From: a candidate division TM6 bacterium GW2011_GWE2_41_16
GTDB lineage: Bacteria > Babelota > Babeliae > Babelales > Babelaceae
DNA length: 33,447 bases
Reading direction: 5' to 3'
Assembly (NCBI GenBank): GCA_000996695.1
Contig: LCAT01000007.1
Coordinates: 1-33,447, forward strand
Part shown: positions 10,598 to 29,034 of the stretch, piece by piece
Numbering within the stretch: position 1 is the first letter of the stretch
How the letters are laid out: each line of letters begins with the position of its first letter
The notes under the pieces: generated by a model
What the model was told of the DNA's origin: nothing
The model's input: the letters and a program-made list of their open reading frames with translations, nothing else
Databases searched by the model: none
Program-made: the position numbers and the translations under genes

Positions 10598-10607
10598 TAA
10601 GATTGAC

Positions 10608-10635
10608 CAGCCGTCGCGTAAAGCTATGGCTGGCA
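10608..10635 (+). repeat. Simple hairpin CCAGCC...GGCTGG (uninserted form of the 17.6 kb cluster)
   Basis: CCAGCCGTCGC, then GTAA, then AGCTATGGCTGGCA, folding by CCAGCC/GGCTGG. Both flanking blocks recur at 17579-17589 and 17716-17729, where about 125 bp of further hairpins sits between them. No T tract follows, so it is not an obvious terminator. Confidence 0.7.
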
Positions 10636-10670: not shown

Positions 10671-11984
10671 ATGATATCATTCATACATACTGCCGATCTC
10701 CACTTTGGTGTTGAAAATTACGGTAAAATCGATCAGAAGACGGGAATACATACCCGTCTTCTGGATTTTGAGCATGCTTTTAATCAATGCATAAATTATG
10801 CTATTGATCATAAGGTTGATTTCTTTTTGATCTGCGGTGATATTTACAAAACGGCAACACCTGCGCCAACTCACCAAAAAATATTTGCACGATCAATCAC
10901 GCAACTTCAAAAGGTACATATTCCTGTTGTCATCATTACAGGCAACCACGATATTCCGCTCAGCCAGGGAAAAACGCATGCCATAAACATTTTTCAAGAG
11001 CTTGAGATTGAAAATATTCATATCATCGATTACCCACAAACCATTACGATTAAAACAGCCCATGGAGAAATTGCCATTATAGGCATCCCATGGCCAACAA
11101 AGCAAGACCATAGGGCACTGCAAATCACGGCATGCACACCCGAAAGCAATGATCTTGTGAATACTGATACAAACCGGCCGCATACCGTCTGCGCAGATCA
11201 AAATGGCATGAGCCATACTTCACAGCTCAATAAAACTACTTCCATCGAACTTAATACCTATGCACGTATTCAAAATTTAATACAAAATCTCGATCCAAGC
11301 ATTCCCACTATTCTTGCAGGACATCTCACCTGCAGTGAAGGGCTGTTCTCCGGATCAGAAAAAAAAGCGCTCACGGGAACGGACCCGTTATTTACCCCTG
11401 ATCAGCTCGCACAGGTTCCGTTAAAATACATCGCGCTGGGGCACCTTCATCGATATCAACGCATACCGCACAAAGAGAAACATGTGCCCATTGTGTACAG
11501 CGGGTCAATTGAGCGTATCGATTTTGGCGAGCGCAAAGAAGACAAAGGATTTTGCCATGTGTGCATTGAGGGCTCACGCACCAATGTTACCTTCATCAAA
11601 ACAATGACTCGTGCATTTATACAAATCGATGTAGCGTTAACTGATGAGATAAACCAAACAAACACCATTATGCAAAAAATTCTAGAGCAGCCTATCAAGG
11701 ACTCAATAATAAAAATTACCTATACGCTTGATCGCTCACTCAAAGACCGTGTTGATCGTATAGCGCTTGAACAAGCGTGTGTCCAAGCATGCTTTTTAGT
11801 TGGTATTTTTCCGGTCTATACCGGCGAGCAAAGACGTATGCGTTCGCGCGATATCGATCAGGCGCTCTCGCCATTAGAATCAATCAATTACTATCTCAAA
11901 CAAAATATACCCGATCAACACCAAAGCCTCATGACCAAAGCACAAGCGTTATTTGATGAGCTCAGCACCGAACAAAATATATAG
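10671..11984 (+). CDS. sbcD: SbcD/Mre11-family DNA exonuclease subunit
   Basis: Predicted Mn2+-dependent 3'-5' exonuclease and hairpin endonuclease that normally works with the SbcC ATPase on DNA ends and palindromes. 437 residues. All metallophosphoesterase motifs are visible: D9-x-H11 (HTADLHFG), CGDIYK around Asp57, GNHD at 91-94, AGHLTCSEG, and ALGHLHRYQ. Compared with the family core there is an extra Asn/Thr-rich segment of about 45 residues after IIGIPWPTKQ, before the next motif. The C-terminal part would be the capping domain. No clear Shine-Dalgarno precedes the ATG. No sbcC follows: the next genes are the convergent ATP synthase genes, so the partner must lie elsewhere or be missing. 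Confidence 0.88.
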   Translation: MISFIHTADLHFGVENYGKIDQKTGIHTRLLDFEHAFNQCINYAIDHKVDFFLICGDIYKTATPAPTHQKIFARSITQLQKVHIPVVIITGNHDIPLSQGKTHAINIFQELEIENIHIIDYPQTITIKTAHGEIAIIGIPWPTKQDHRALQITACTPESNDLVNTDTNRPHTVCADQNGMSHTSQLNKTTSIELNTYARIQNLIQNLDPSIPTILAGHLTCSEGLFSGSEKKALTGTDPLFTPDQLAQVPLKYIALGHLHRYQRIPHKEKHVPIVYSGSIERIDFGERKEDKGFCHVCIEGSRTNVTFIKTMTRAFIQIDVALTDEINQTNTIMQKILEQPIKDSIIKITYTLDRSLKDRVDRIALEQACVQACFLVGIFPVYTGEQRRMRSRDIDQALSPLESINYYLKQNIPDQHQSLMTKAQALFDELSTEQNI

Positions 11985-12000
11985 TAGGGCTCTGCCCTAC
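11984..12000 (+). terminator. Hairpin at the sbcD stop
   Basis: GTAGGGC-TCT-GCCCTAC, a perfect 7 bp stem starting at the last base of the sbcD TAG. No T tract follows, so termination is uncertain; it may belong to the repeat element that begins immediately after it. Confidence 0.4.
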
Positions 12001-12260
12001 ACCCGCAAGGGCGTTCGCCCTCCATAACGACCGTAAGTACGTGTCGTTTGGGCCGAAGGCTTGACCCACAAAATAATACAAAGCAATAAATTTACAAATG
12101 CGAAGCTCATGTCCGCCGAAGTTTTATGCGAAGGCTGGATAAAGTGTGAGGGGATATAAAAACGGTAAAAACCGTTTTTATATCCCCTCAGTTACTCACG
12201 GCAAAAGCCATGTATCACGTGTGAATTTTTAATGGGTCAAGGGCGAACGCCCTTGTGGGT
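12001..12260. repeat. MITE-like element with 21 bp terminal inverted repeats
   Basis: The ends at 12001-12021 and 12240-12260 are inverted repeats matching at 20 of 21 bases (core CAAGGGCGTTCGCCCT). Each end is itself a small hairpin, GGC-N4-GCC. The interior has no ORF but contains a 20 bp perfect palindrome arm pair (12147-12166 / 12171-12190) and another GGC-AAAA-GCC hairpin at 12200. The left 70 bp recurs at 19614-19686. The element fills the gap between convergent sbcD and atpA. A non-autonomous mobile or REP-like element is the best reading; no transposase lies in the window. Confidence 0.65.
12147..12190. repeat. Perfect 20 bp inverted repeat with AAAA loop
   Basis: TGAGGGGATATAAAAACGGT at 12147-12166 is exactly complementary to 12171-12190, with loop AAAA. 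The inner part (AAAAACGGT / ACCGTTTTT) has the symmetry of a bidirectional terminator, which would suit its position between two convergent genes. Such a long perfect palindrome is also a known type of SbcCD substrate. Confidence 0.8.
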
Positions 12261-12277
12261 TAAGGATGAAACCCTTA

Positions 12278-13795
12278 TTATTTACACATCATCATGAACT
12301 CACGTGCATAATCAGAAAGCTGTTTGTCCGTTTGAGTAGATATATCAGCATCGTGTTTTATACGATCATAGATCGCTGTTTGTGTATGTTTAATGTAATC
12401 GACAAACTTCCACGCACAATCGACTGCAAGCTTCCACGCACAATCGACTGCAAGATTCTTTTCTTTGCCTTCTAAAAAGCCCTTTTGGAAAAGAAACAGC
12501 ACAATTGCTTGCTGCTCAAAAGGCCGCGTATTGAACTGGTCTTGCTTAAGCAACTCAACCGCAATCGCGCCGCGCGCAAGCTGTCGCTGAGAAACAATAT
12601 CAAGCTCTGTGCCAAATTGCGAAAAGCCAACAAGTTCGCTATATTGCGCCAAATCAAGACGCAAAGACTTGGTTACTTTGCGAATAGCCTTTGTTTGTGC
12701 AGCTCCACCCACACGAGAAACGGATAACTCTCCATTCACTGCAGGCCGCACGCCACTATTAAATAAGTGAGAGTCTAAGAAAATTTGGCCATCGGTAATC
12801 GAAATCAAGTTCGTAGGAATATATGCGGTTAAATCGTCACCCTGCAACTGCACGATCGGCAAAGCAGTGATCGAACCACCAGCCAAAAATTTACCTGAGC
12901 GCTCAAGAAGGTGTGAGTGCAGATAGAAAATATCACCAGGATACGCCTCACGACCAGGAGAACGTCTCATAAGCAACGACATTTCACGATATGCAATAGC
13001 ATGATCGGTTAAGTCGTCGTACACAATCAATACATCACGGCCCTGATCTCTCAGGTATTCAGCAAGTGTTGTTCCAACATACGGAGCCATATATCTACAT
13101 AATACCGCATCCGATGCATCAGCAATAATAATAGCGGTGTATTCAAGCGACCCACGCTCTTGCAGCGTATGCATTAAACGAGCAACGTTCACTTGACGCT
13201 GACCAATCGCAACATAAATACACAGAACGTTTTTGCCTTTTTGATGCAAAATCGTATCCAAAGCAATTGCTGTTTTTCCAGTATTTCGGTTCCCGATAAT
13301 GAGCTCTCGCTGACCACGACCGATTGGCACAAGCGTGTCAATCGCCATGATACCCGTTTCCAAAGATTCGTTCACCGGGCTACGATCTGCTATGCCAGGA
13401 ATATCAACTTCAATAGATCGCTCCTCAACAACGTCTACTGTTCCGAGACCGTCTATAGGCGTGCCAAGCGCGTTTACCACGCGTCCAAGCAATGACTCGC
13501 CAACACCAAGTTTAAAAACACTTTTGGTACGATGAACCATTTCCCCTTCATTCACCGGAATGGTGTTATAAAGAAAAAAAGCGGTTGCAAGATCTTCTTC
13601 AAGATCAAGGATCATTCCTTTATTGCCACCTTCAAATAACACAATTTCACCGTACAGAGCATGCGTTATCCCGTTTATGTGGCACATGCCATCACCAACT
13701 TTAACGACCACACCAACCTCTTCGAGAGTTGTGAGATCACTTTGGGATAAAGCTTTTTCAAAAAGATTTTCCAAATCGGCAGTCTTAAGAGTCAT
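12278..13795 (-). CDS. atpA: F1-ATP synthase alpha subunit
   Basis: Non-catalytic nucleotide-binding subunit of the F1 head. 505 residues, normal length. Seen: P-loop GNRNTGKT near residue 170 (usually GDRQTGKT), IPIGRGQ-like segment (LVPIGRGQRELIIG), YDDLTDHAIAYR, RRSPGREAYPGD, and the arginine-finger region SVSRVGGAAQT. The C-terminal domain carries a duplicated octapeptide (LAVDCAWK twice) from an exact 24 bp tandem repeat. AGGTGA precedes the ATG at 13795. It follows delta in the usual order but with a 166 bp gap holding a repeat. Gamma, beta and epsilon, which normally follow, are absent: the next gene is sbcD on the opposite strand. Confidence 0.97.
   Translation of the reverse strand: MTLKTADLENLFEKALSQSDLTTLEEVGVVVKVGDGMCHINGITHALYGEIVLFEGGNKGMILDLEEDLATAFFLYNTIPVNEGEMVHRTKSVFKLGVGESLLGRVVNALGTPIDGLGTVDVVEERSIEVDIPGIADRSPVNESLETGIMAIDTLVPIGRGQRELIIGNRNTGKTAIALDTILHQKGKNVLCIYVAIGQRQVNVARLMHTLQERGSLEYTAIIIADASDAVLCRYMAPYVGTTLAEYLRDQGRDVLIVYDDLTDHAIAYREMSLLMRRSPGREAYPGDIFYLHSHLLERSGKFLAGGSITALPIVQLQGDDLTAYIPTNLISITDGQIFLDSHLFNSGVRPAVNGELSVSRVGGAAQTKAIRKVTKSLRLDLAQYSELVGFSQFGTELDIVSQRQLARGAIAVELLKQDQFNTRPFEQQAIVLFLFQKGFLEGKEKNLAVDCAWKLAVDCAWKFVDYIKHTQTAIYDRIKHDADISTQTDKQLSDYAREFMMMCK
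12407..12454 (-). repeat. Exact 24 bp tandem duplication in atpA
   Basis: Two identical 24 bp copies (12407-12430 and 12431-12454) encode LAVDCAWK twice, in frame, in the C-terminal helical domain of the alpha subunit. The identity of the copies points to a recent event. Confidence 0.95.
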
Positions 13796-15346: not shown

Positions 15347-15668
15347 AGCAGGTACTACCTTTTGTTATGACGATTATCATTTTATAGCCATGGCTATTTT
15401 GGCCTGCGCAAACATATTGGTGCGTCGCAAAATAGTACGGCCTTTTAGAGGCGTACCAAGACCGCACTATTTCTTGTTTATGTGATCCAATCACACTATT
15501 TGTGTTTATGGAAGTGCAAAGCCCAAGTGACACGTTAATCACTTGGAGGACTGCGCTATAGAGATAAGGTGCGCCCAGAAGCTCACACGCATTGAAAATA
15601 ACAAAAAAGCACTTCATGCCGTGTGAAAAAAATCTCAAATAATTCGGCTATCAAACATGCCGTCAAAA
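15347..15668. repeat. Intergenic hairpin region inside the ATP synthase cluster
   Basis: 322 bp with no credible gene. It holds at least three stem-loops: AATAGTACGG / CCGCACTATT (15431-15440 / 15462-15471, one mismatch), GTGAT-CCA-ATCAC within 15471-15500, and CCAAGTGA / TCACTTGG (15523-15530 / 15539-15546). The 30 nt at 15471-15500 match 28624-28653 at 27 positions. The 14 nt GCCCAAGTGACACG recurs at 17603-17616. A 132-codon minus-strand ORF crossing the region (15240-15638) is a by-product. The hairpins could tune c-subunit expression relative to the other subunits. Confidence 0.6.
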
Positions 15669-17471: not shown

Positions 17472-17563
17472 ACATACCCACACAAAAAAGGTCCTATATT
17501 GTACAAAAAAAATGCGCAAAACAAGCGCGCGAACATGAATGGCGTATGCGGCTCACACAAAAA

Positions 17564-17870
17564 ATTGATGTATCGGTTCCAGCCGTCGCATTGAAACTTT
17601 CAGCCCAAGTGACACGCCCAAGCACCTCAATGTTTCAGTACTCGGTTTCACTTGGAGCCTGAAGTCCAGATAAAACGCCTGAGCGCTTCAATGTTTCAGG
17701 CTCAATTTTATCTGAAGCTATGGCTGGCACGAAAAACAGCGACGGCCATTACATTTCGACTTCGAGCCGCATAAACCTTTAATGGCGAGTACGACTAGCA
17801 AACATGATTGATGTATCGGTTCAAACTGGCGACTGCCATTACATTTCTACTTCAAGCCGCGTGAGTCCTT
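17564..17870. repeat. Nested hairpin cluster and duplicated sequence blocks
   Basis: An outer stem CCAGCC (17579-17584) / GGCTGG (17722-17727) encloses two tandem hairpins. Hairpin 1 is CCAAGTGA (17605-17612) / TCACTTGG (17648-17655). Hairpin 2 is CAGATAAAA (17667-17675) / TTTTATCTG (17706-17714). Both enclose the same 12 nt TCAATGTTTCAG (17627-17638, 17688-17699). The outer arms recur, without the insert, at 10608-10635; the hairpin 1 arms recur without its interior at 15523-15546. Two further blocks are duplicated locally: 17564-17579 with 17807-17822 (16 of 16), and 17739-17770 with 17829-17860 (29 of 32). The rest of the 455 bp gap (17384-17838) has no gene. Confidence 0.75.
17739..17775 (-). 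pseudogene. Remnant copy of the ABC permease 3' end
   Basis: On the minus strand this block still reads RLEVEM and a stop in the same frame as the end of the intact permease gene 90 bp away. The differences inside those codons are synonymous (CTT/CTC, GTA/GTC). It looks like the tail of a lost second permease copy or of a local duplication. Only about 35 bp is recognisable. Confidence 0.5.
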
Positions 17871-19613: not shown

Positions 19614-19686
19614 ACAAGGGCATTCGCCCTCCATAACGAAAGTATACGTATCGTTTGGGCCGTAAGCCTTGTGAAGGCTTGACCCA
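19614..19686. repeat. Second copy of the left part of the MITE-like element
   Basis: Matches 12005-12070: CAAGGGCRTTCGCCCTCC, ATAACGA, a variable stretch, TCGTTTGGGCCG, then AAGGCTTGACCCA. This copy has an extra 11 bp that creates a new hairpin (AAGCCTT-GTG-AAGGCTT). The AACGA...TCGTT pairing is kept in both copies although the bases between them differ. No right-hand inverted repeat is present. Confidence 0.75.
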
Positions 19687-21906: not shown

Positions 21907-22036
21907 GCTCGCACGTACCTTTTATATTCTTAACTTTTATGGCATTCGCCACTTTGATATACACAATTTATTACTTGATCTGGCATTGGTAGGTGTTAAA
22001 TGTGTAACTCTTAGTGAATCTTGCTAAATATTTTTT

Positions 22037-28563: not shown

Positions 28564-28589
28564 ATAGATCTCTGTCGAAAAAATTATTT

Positions 28590-28653
28590 ATGGCAAAAGC
28601 CATTATGGCCCGCTCAAAAGTGTTCCTTGTTTATGTGATTAAATCACACTATT
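28590..28653. repeat. GGC-N4-GCC palindrome plus dispersed 30 nt repeat
   Basis: ATGGC-AAAA-GCCAT (28590-28603) is followed by a 30 nt block (28624-28653) matching 15471-15500 at 27 positions, centred on GTGAT-TAA-ATCAC. The similarity to the 15.5 kb region weakens after this but resumes as GACT.CGCTATA near 28683. Confidence 0.65.
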
Positions 28654-28674
28654 CATGACCATGGATGAGCAACG

Positions 28675-29034
28675 CTAAGTGGACTTCGCTATATGTGAGC
28701 TTACATGTGCAACAAGCGAGCTCAGTGCGATTAAGGCTAAACCGCCACCGCACTCGCACCCAATAATAATTTTTTGATTTTTGGTGAGCGGACGGCGCTT
28801 AAAAAGGTATTCATGAACTTCCTGGTATCCAATAAGCAAAAGCACGGTGCCTACCACGATACACGCACCACCACGGCACGAATGAATCACGGACCTTTTT
28901 GTCTCATTAAGAGCGTGCTCTATTGTGGGAGAAAAAAGCTCGTCAATTGGCCACGTTGCATGCATCATTGAACTTGTGTTGAGCAACAAGGCACAACATA
29001 CACTCAATAGTATAGTACGCACGTAGGTAGCCAT
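28675..29034 (-). CDS. Small exported membrane protein, paralogue of the 185-residue protein upstream
   Basis: 119 residues, unknown family. Signal peptide (TILLSVCCALLLNTSSMMHA), then two hydrophobic segments (CIVVGTVLLLIGY and GGGLALIALSSLVAHV). It shares with the protein at 30124-30681 the order RG..C.VVGT, then Y...H, then a Cys-x2-Cys-Gly-Gly-like CECGGGLALI, which suggests common ancestry. AAAGGA is 9 nt before the ATG. It lies 76 bp downstream of the M48 peptidase gene and may be the last gene of that operon. Confidence 0.7.
   Translation of the reverse strand: MATYVRTILLSVCCALLLNTSSMMHATWPIDELFSPTIEHALNETKRSVIHSCRGGACIVVGTVLLLIGYQEVHEYLFKRRPLTKNQKIIIGCECGGGLALIALSSLVAHVSSHIAKST

Follow-up and report, generated by a model that had tools for sequence, protein, structure and literature searches.

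Integron attC sites keep their structure while the sequence of their stems varies. The Correia/NEMIS and RUP elements are MITEs with a TA target, and RUP is linked to IS630. The Rickettsia palindromic elements (RPE) are selfish palindromes, some of which are fused in frame inside ORFs (PMC2229807), and in the RHE hairpin elements of sponge mitochondria the stems are conserved and the loops vary (PMC2800124). In the sections available, the paper on Babela massiliensis reports one transposase gene and makes no mention of palindromes.

The DNA analyzed here (the window, 33,447 nt) comprises bases 1-33447 of contig 7 of candidate division TM6 bacterium GW2011_GWE2_41_16, the study genome (G000), which is a 0.94-Mb, 35-contig draft that is 94% complete. 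Base-by-base examination covered approximately 445 kb (47% of the genome), and whole-genome searches covered the remainder; L-numbers (e.g. L066) denote labeled sequence stretches of this genome. The nested hairpins at 17579-17729 of the window and their relatives elsewhere in the genome are probably miniature palindromic mobile elements, non-autonomous and recursively nested, that form lineage-specific families (Table 1). In the nest, an S hairpin encloses two tandem V units, each of which holds a T hairpin in its loop. The original prediction, made from the letters of the window, had described an outer stem around two tandem hairpins with an identical 12 nt core, and had located the outer arms and the arms of the first inner hairpin elsewhere with only GTAA and TTAA, respectively, between them; the coordinates check out, and both solo hairpins and the shared core are present. 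The two inner stems had been called unrelated, but they are not wholly so: both hairpins belong to the V family and have the outer pairs CCA/TGG and the loop border in common, and the middle five pairs are variable and covary. The covariance-model match for the first V unit spans 17595-17660. Within the window the exact core TCAATGTTTCAG is found in these two units only, and genome-wide it has 13 exact matches, or 22 with one mismatch allowed versus 5 for a reversed control pattern. Folding of the cluster relative to shuffled sequences gave z = -3.4 as RNA and a weaker z = -1.7 as DNA. The nest is flanked by direct repeats (17538-17588 and 17781-17831, 73% identical), and a second direct-repeat pair around it (17739-17770 and 17829-17860) is 91% identical.

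The small units are mostly 25-60 nt and fall into several families, with nesting up to three deep. S units follow the pattern CCAGCCGTCGC/GCTATGGCTGGCA and variants, V units the pattern C[CT]TACGGCCCA-arm-TACGTACTTACT-arm'-TGGAG, and W units the pattern TGGTGCGTC..GACCGCACTA; T is a core hairpin that sits in V loops, and P, Q, and R are longer elements with terminal inverted parts. Besides V, at least five further nested families (P, Q, R, S, and W) were found genome-wide, which extends the original prediction. The P element of the window carries an S-type unit (12110-12138) in addition to its V unit. A long perfect central hairpin, e.g. GGGGAAATAATAAAACGGTTTTTACCGTTTTATTATTTCCCC, was observed in P elements at L070:5780-6054, L084:2508-2764, and window 11984-12283.

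Table 1. Hairpin units and host elements of the window, and S units read in frame elsewhere in the genome (L-numbers).
Feature	Position	Strand	Remark
Outer hairpin S, left arm CCAGCCGTCGC	17579-17589	+	
Inner hairpin 1, V unit (CCAAGTGA/TCACTTGG)	17605-17655	+	T hairpin in loop
T core TCAATGTTTCAG in V unit 1	17627-17638	+	
Inner hairpin 2, V unit (CCAGATAA/TTATCTGA)	17666-17715	+	T in loop; tandem to unit 1
T core TCAATGTTTCAG in V unit 2	17688-17699	+	
Outer hairpin S, right arm AGCTATGGCTGGCA	17716-17729	+	
Solo (empty) S hairpin	10607-10635	+	GTAA between arms; 3' of GlmU gene, just 5' of SbcD gene
P element, ~260-300 nt	11984-12283		Inverted ends, long central perfect hairpin
V unit inserted in P element (GGGTCAAG|GGCGAACG)	12017-12061	-	Matching unfilled sequence at window 12229
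W hairpin	15418-15469	+	Encloses inverted W hairpin at 15433-15458
Solo V hairpin	15522-15548	+	TTAA between arms
V unit, P-like context	19626-19668	-	
R element TATGGCATTCGCCA...TTGCT	21920-22025	+	Recurrent V host family
Q element TATAGCGAAGTCCA...TGGCAAAAGCCATA without V	28578-28696	-	Recurrent V host family
S units read in frame as TTQP...GGQAT linkers	L065:236-2326, L066:53-4690, L068:19936-19965		

BLAST of the cluster and a pattern search with the core returned many dispersed relatives in the genome, and the covariance model of V (R1) gave 64 matches; together with the 13 exact core matches, these bear out the expectation that further copies exist. The same model had 0 matches in the relative from the same genus (G001), 0 in G002 and G003 (the latter being 1,118,422 bases in one contig, 27.5% GC), and two or fewer weak, chance-level matches in any one of the other relatives. 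A regular expression for the S family found 23 copies in stretches of the study genome and 0 in G001-G003. The query 17560-17750 had no match at E<=1e-4 in the other 100 of the 101 genomes searched in the order. Searches of genome_contigs (named GTDB genomes, from which near genomes may be left out) yielded 5 stretches, about the chance expectation, and searches of viral_contigs yielded 0 and 1 matches. In 397 kb of study-genome stretches, 402 12-mers had at least 5 occurrences and at least 30-fold excess over expectation, compared with 24, 93, and 14 in the shorter stretches taken from three relatives (~200 kb each); a large share of the 12-mers behind the count of 93 look like coding repeats. 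Self-BLAST of the stretches delimited 122 repeat regions, which fall into recurring units.

Insertion was assessed by joining the flanks of filled copies and then seeking an unfilled match elsewhere in the genome. For V, the joined flanks of the S host in L081 matched L067:14182 with 0/26 mismatches, those of the Q host in L082 matched L079:18821 with 1/26, and those of the P host at window 12051 matched window 12229 with 2/26. Insertion of W gave 0/28 in another W (matched at other loci) and 1/28 in Q, and insertion of S gave 2/28 both in Q and in the loop of a P hairpin, whereas 60 random pseudo-units used as a control had 4-7 mismatches and never fewer than 4/26. These near-zero-mismatch empty sites, located in the same genome as the filled copies, indicate at the sequence level that hairpin units inserted into one another, as had been proposed. 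The evidence comes from within one draft genome in which many copies share a host site; since many V units occupy one site of a host family, part of the V copy number may reflect amplification of composites rather than fresh insertion. Gain of V is simpler than loss, because V is found in no fewer than four unrelated hosts (S, Q, R, and P) and also occupies a site 3' of a tRNA-Arg gene. The V insertion point lies 3' of (A/G)AG in these hosts, with a target duplication no longer than about 2 bp. Sites are not restricted to loops: in both the Q and the P host, V interrupts a stem arm. Where Q lies inside R, the sequence is compatible with a TA duplication; none was seen at V and W insertion sites. 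The V unit next to tRNA-Arg (L168:1501-1544) is immediately 3' of the gene (1414-1490), and at L081:6842-6941 a tRNA sequence is flanked by S-type repeats.

Hairpins this short, with no long target duplication, a position 3' of a short fixed motif, and a mostly intergenic distribution, could be REP/REPIN or IS200/IS605-type palindromes moved by a Y1 (RAYT/TnpA) transposase. However, the Y1 model (PF01797) had no match in the 94%-complete genome (5/14 controls match), no TnpB was found in the genome, and the S and V ends have no unpaired GTAG/CGTC tag next to the stem (consensus in PMC3733652), which makes this explanation unlikely. Mobilization by Y1/RAYT and the TnpB route were both rejected on these grounds, and so was reverse transcription, since the genome contains no reverse transcriptase (RVT_1). 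REP/RAYT elements and attC sites had been offered as the closest analogies, as analogies only; actual membership is contradicted by the lack of a Y1/RAYT transposase or TnpB in the first case and of a cassette array and a linked integrase in the second. As to the proposed search for a Y1 transposase or a tyrosine integrase, the former is absent and the latter is represented by a single tyrosine recombinase gene on another contig. An IS630-type element was located at L066:5280-6410 (-), inserted in a Thr-rich gene, and a run of nine A divides its transposase between two frames, probably a programmed frameshift. The ends of this element (TACCATT/AATGGTA) are unlike the unit ends (TATRGC, TAAGGG, and others), a comparison that rests on this first element, as the second IS630 match is truncated at a contig edge. 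No transposase could be linked to the S, V, T, and W units.

The arms of the units vary together. Across 57 distinct V units, Watson-Crick pairs make up 259 of the 285 pairs in the middle stem (26 mismatched cells); with arms swapped between copies the count was 163 on average and 192 at most, and 0/10,000 shuffles reached the observed value. At stem positions 4-8 of 36 distinct V units the count was 158/180 (shuffled mean 101, maximum 126), and in the subset at the P site (n=16) it was 75/80 (shuffled mean 55, maximum 69). A gap-free alignment of 16 V units had 18 double-change cells versus 6.6, the V covariation score was 0.365 versus 0.192, and T arms gave a weaker instance of the same pattern (66 versus 52; 3/20,000 shuffles). 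Since pairing of the arms was part of the basis on which units were selected, the pairing level is inflated, but not the excess of own-arm pairing over pairing with the arms of other copies. The predicted combination of conserved interiors with variable yet pairing arms is thus upheld by the covariation score and by the shuffles.

Stems that covary around conserved loops usually indicate functional RNA, and the units lie mostly between genes even though the stretches are ~86% predicted coding. They could accordingly be structured RNAs or transcription signals (terminators, mRNA stabilizers) selected in transcripts, with nesting as helix insertion. This is quite improbable, however, because V orientation is random relative to the transcription of flanking genes (12 same, 13 opposite), which favors a DNA-level element, because Rfam models matched only one tRNA in the window, because the units are absent from all relatives searched, the same genus included, and because copies also occur inside ORFs. 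The mismatch types in V stems (13 A-C versus 2 G-T) had been considered as a sign of RNA-level selection from wobble pairs; this was set aside and the count was not used, because the V copies are not independent. Some S units are in frame within Thr/Pro-rich linkers (TTQP..GGQAT) of large ORFs, and a V unit at L185:456-499 brings a stop codon into a reading frame of the TTQP...GGQAT type. The gene for SbcD, a subunit of a palindrome-cleaving nuclease, lies directly beside the solo S hairpin (window 10671-11984). It is intact here and present in 14/15 family relatives, and loss of SbcCD as the cause of the burst was therefore ruled out.

Mutation without mobility was also considered, in which template switching makes and perfects hairpins, with gene conversion or duplication spreading similar sequences. 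Template switching can produce both compensatory stem changes and new hairpins (PMC8794818), and the V stems have few mismatches; it may explain how the arms stay paired. As an account of the units as a whole it is very unlikely, since near-identical units with defined ends lie in unrelated hosts with clean empty sites, and in 34 copies the V loop points the same way relative to its flanks. Two V loops flagged as inverted, a possible sign of template switching, read forward on inspection, the loop being nearly self-complementary. Integron-like cassette recombination sites (attC) folded as single strands would share the variable stems and conserved unpaired parts, and a tyrosine recombinase is present, but the sole such gene is on another contig and the units lack pairing with cassette genes and are found inside one another and inside ORFs, so that this origin is extremely improbable.

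Under the preferred reading, that of miniature palindromic mobile elements, the hairpin families (S, V, T, W, and, as longer elements, P, Q, and R) spread through the genome and, being common in it, repeatedly inserted into each other, with certain preferred positions often hit again. The units would move as DNA by means of a transposase that acts in trans and reads the hairpin and its loop, and arm pairing would be maintained through selection acting on the hairpin, through template-switch (quasipalindrome) correction, or through a combination of the two. It is possible, but doubtful, that they form a new class of mobile hairpins of 25-60 nt, recognized by the loop, with a stem that is free to vary if paired, assembled into recursive nests, and moved by an enzyme beyond the HUH, DDE-MITE, and reverse-transcriptase types. 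With empty and filled sites in one genome, the locus provides a natural record of selfish hairpins colonizing one another in a reduced genome, and it points to a putative mobilizing enzyme in a little-studied lineage. Since paired substitutions alter the stems and the loops are retained, the system also allows a test of whether recognition or template-switch mutation keeps the hairpins paired.

Among known systems, the units are best read, by analogy, as related in kind to the RPE, the Correia/RUP MITEs, and the mitochondrial hairpin elements. The attC sites resemble them in stem sequences that vary while the structure is kept, and differ in that the study genome has no cassette array seen and no linked integrase. 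REP/REPIN sequences are likewise clustered hairpins of 20-40 nt in many copies, but the study genome lacks RAYT/Y1 and the GTAG/CGTC tag, and the units are nested instead of forming head-to-head dimers. The likeness to Correia/NEMIS and RUP consists of the terminal inverted parts of P, Q, and R, the apparent TA duplication of Q inside R, and the presence of an IS630-type transposase, whereas the unit ends do not match the resident IS630 and V and W show no TA duplication. Like the RPE, the units are lineage-specific, occur in a small genome, are mostly dispersed, and include in-frame copies in ORFs (S units of L066, L065, and L068); the RPE are set apart by their description as single elements of 105-146 bp, as the units are mostly 25-60 nt, belong to several families, are nested, and have covarying arms. 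With the mitochondrial RHE/DHE they share independent hairpin invasions, tandem and multi-hairpin clusters, and the lack of a known enzyme, and relative to the sponge RHE the pattern is the reverse, with loops largely kept and middle stems that vary by paired changes.
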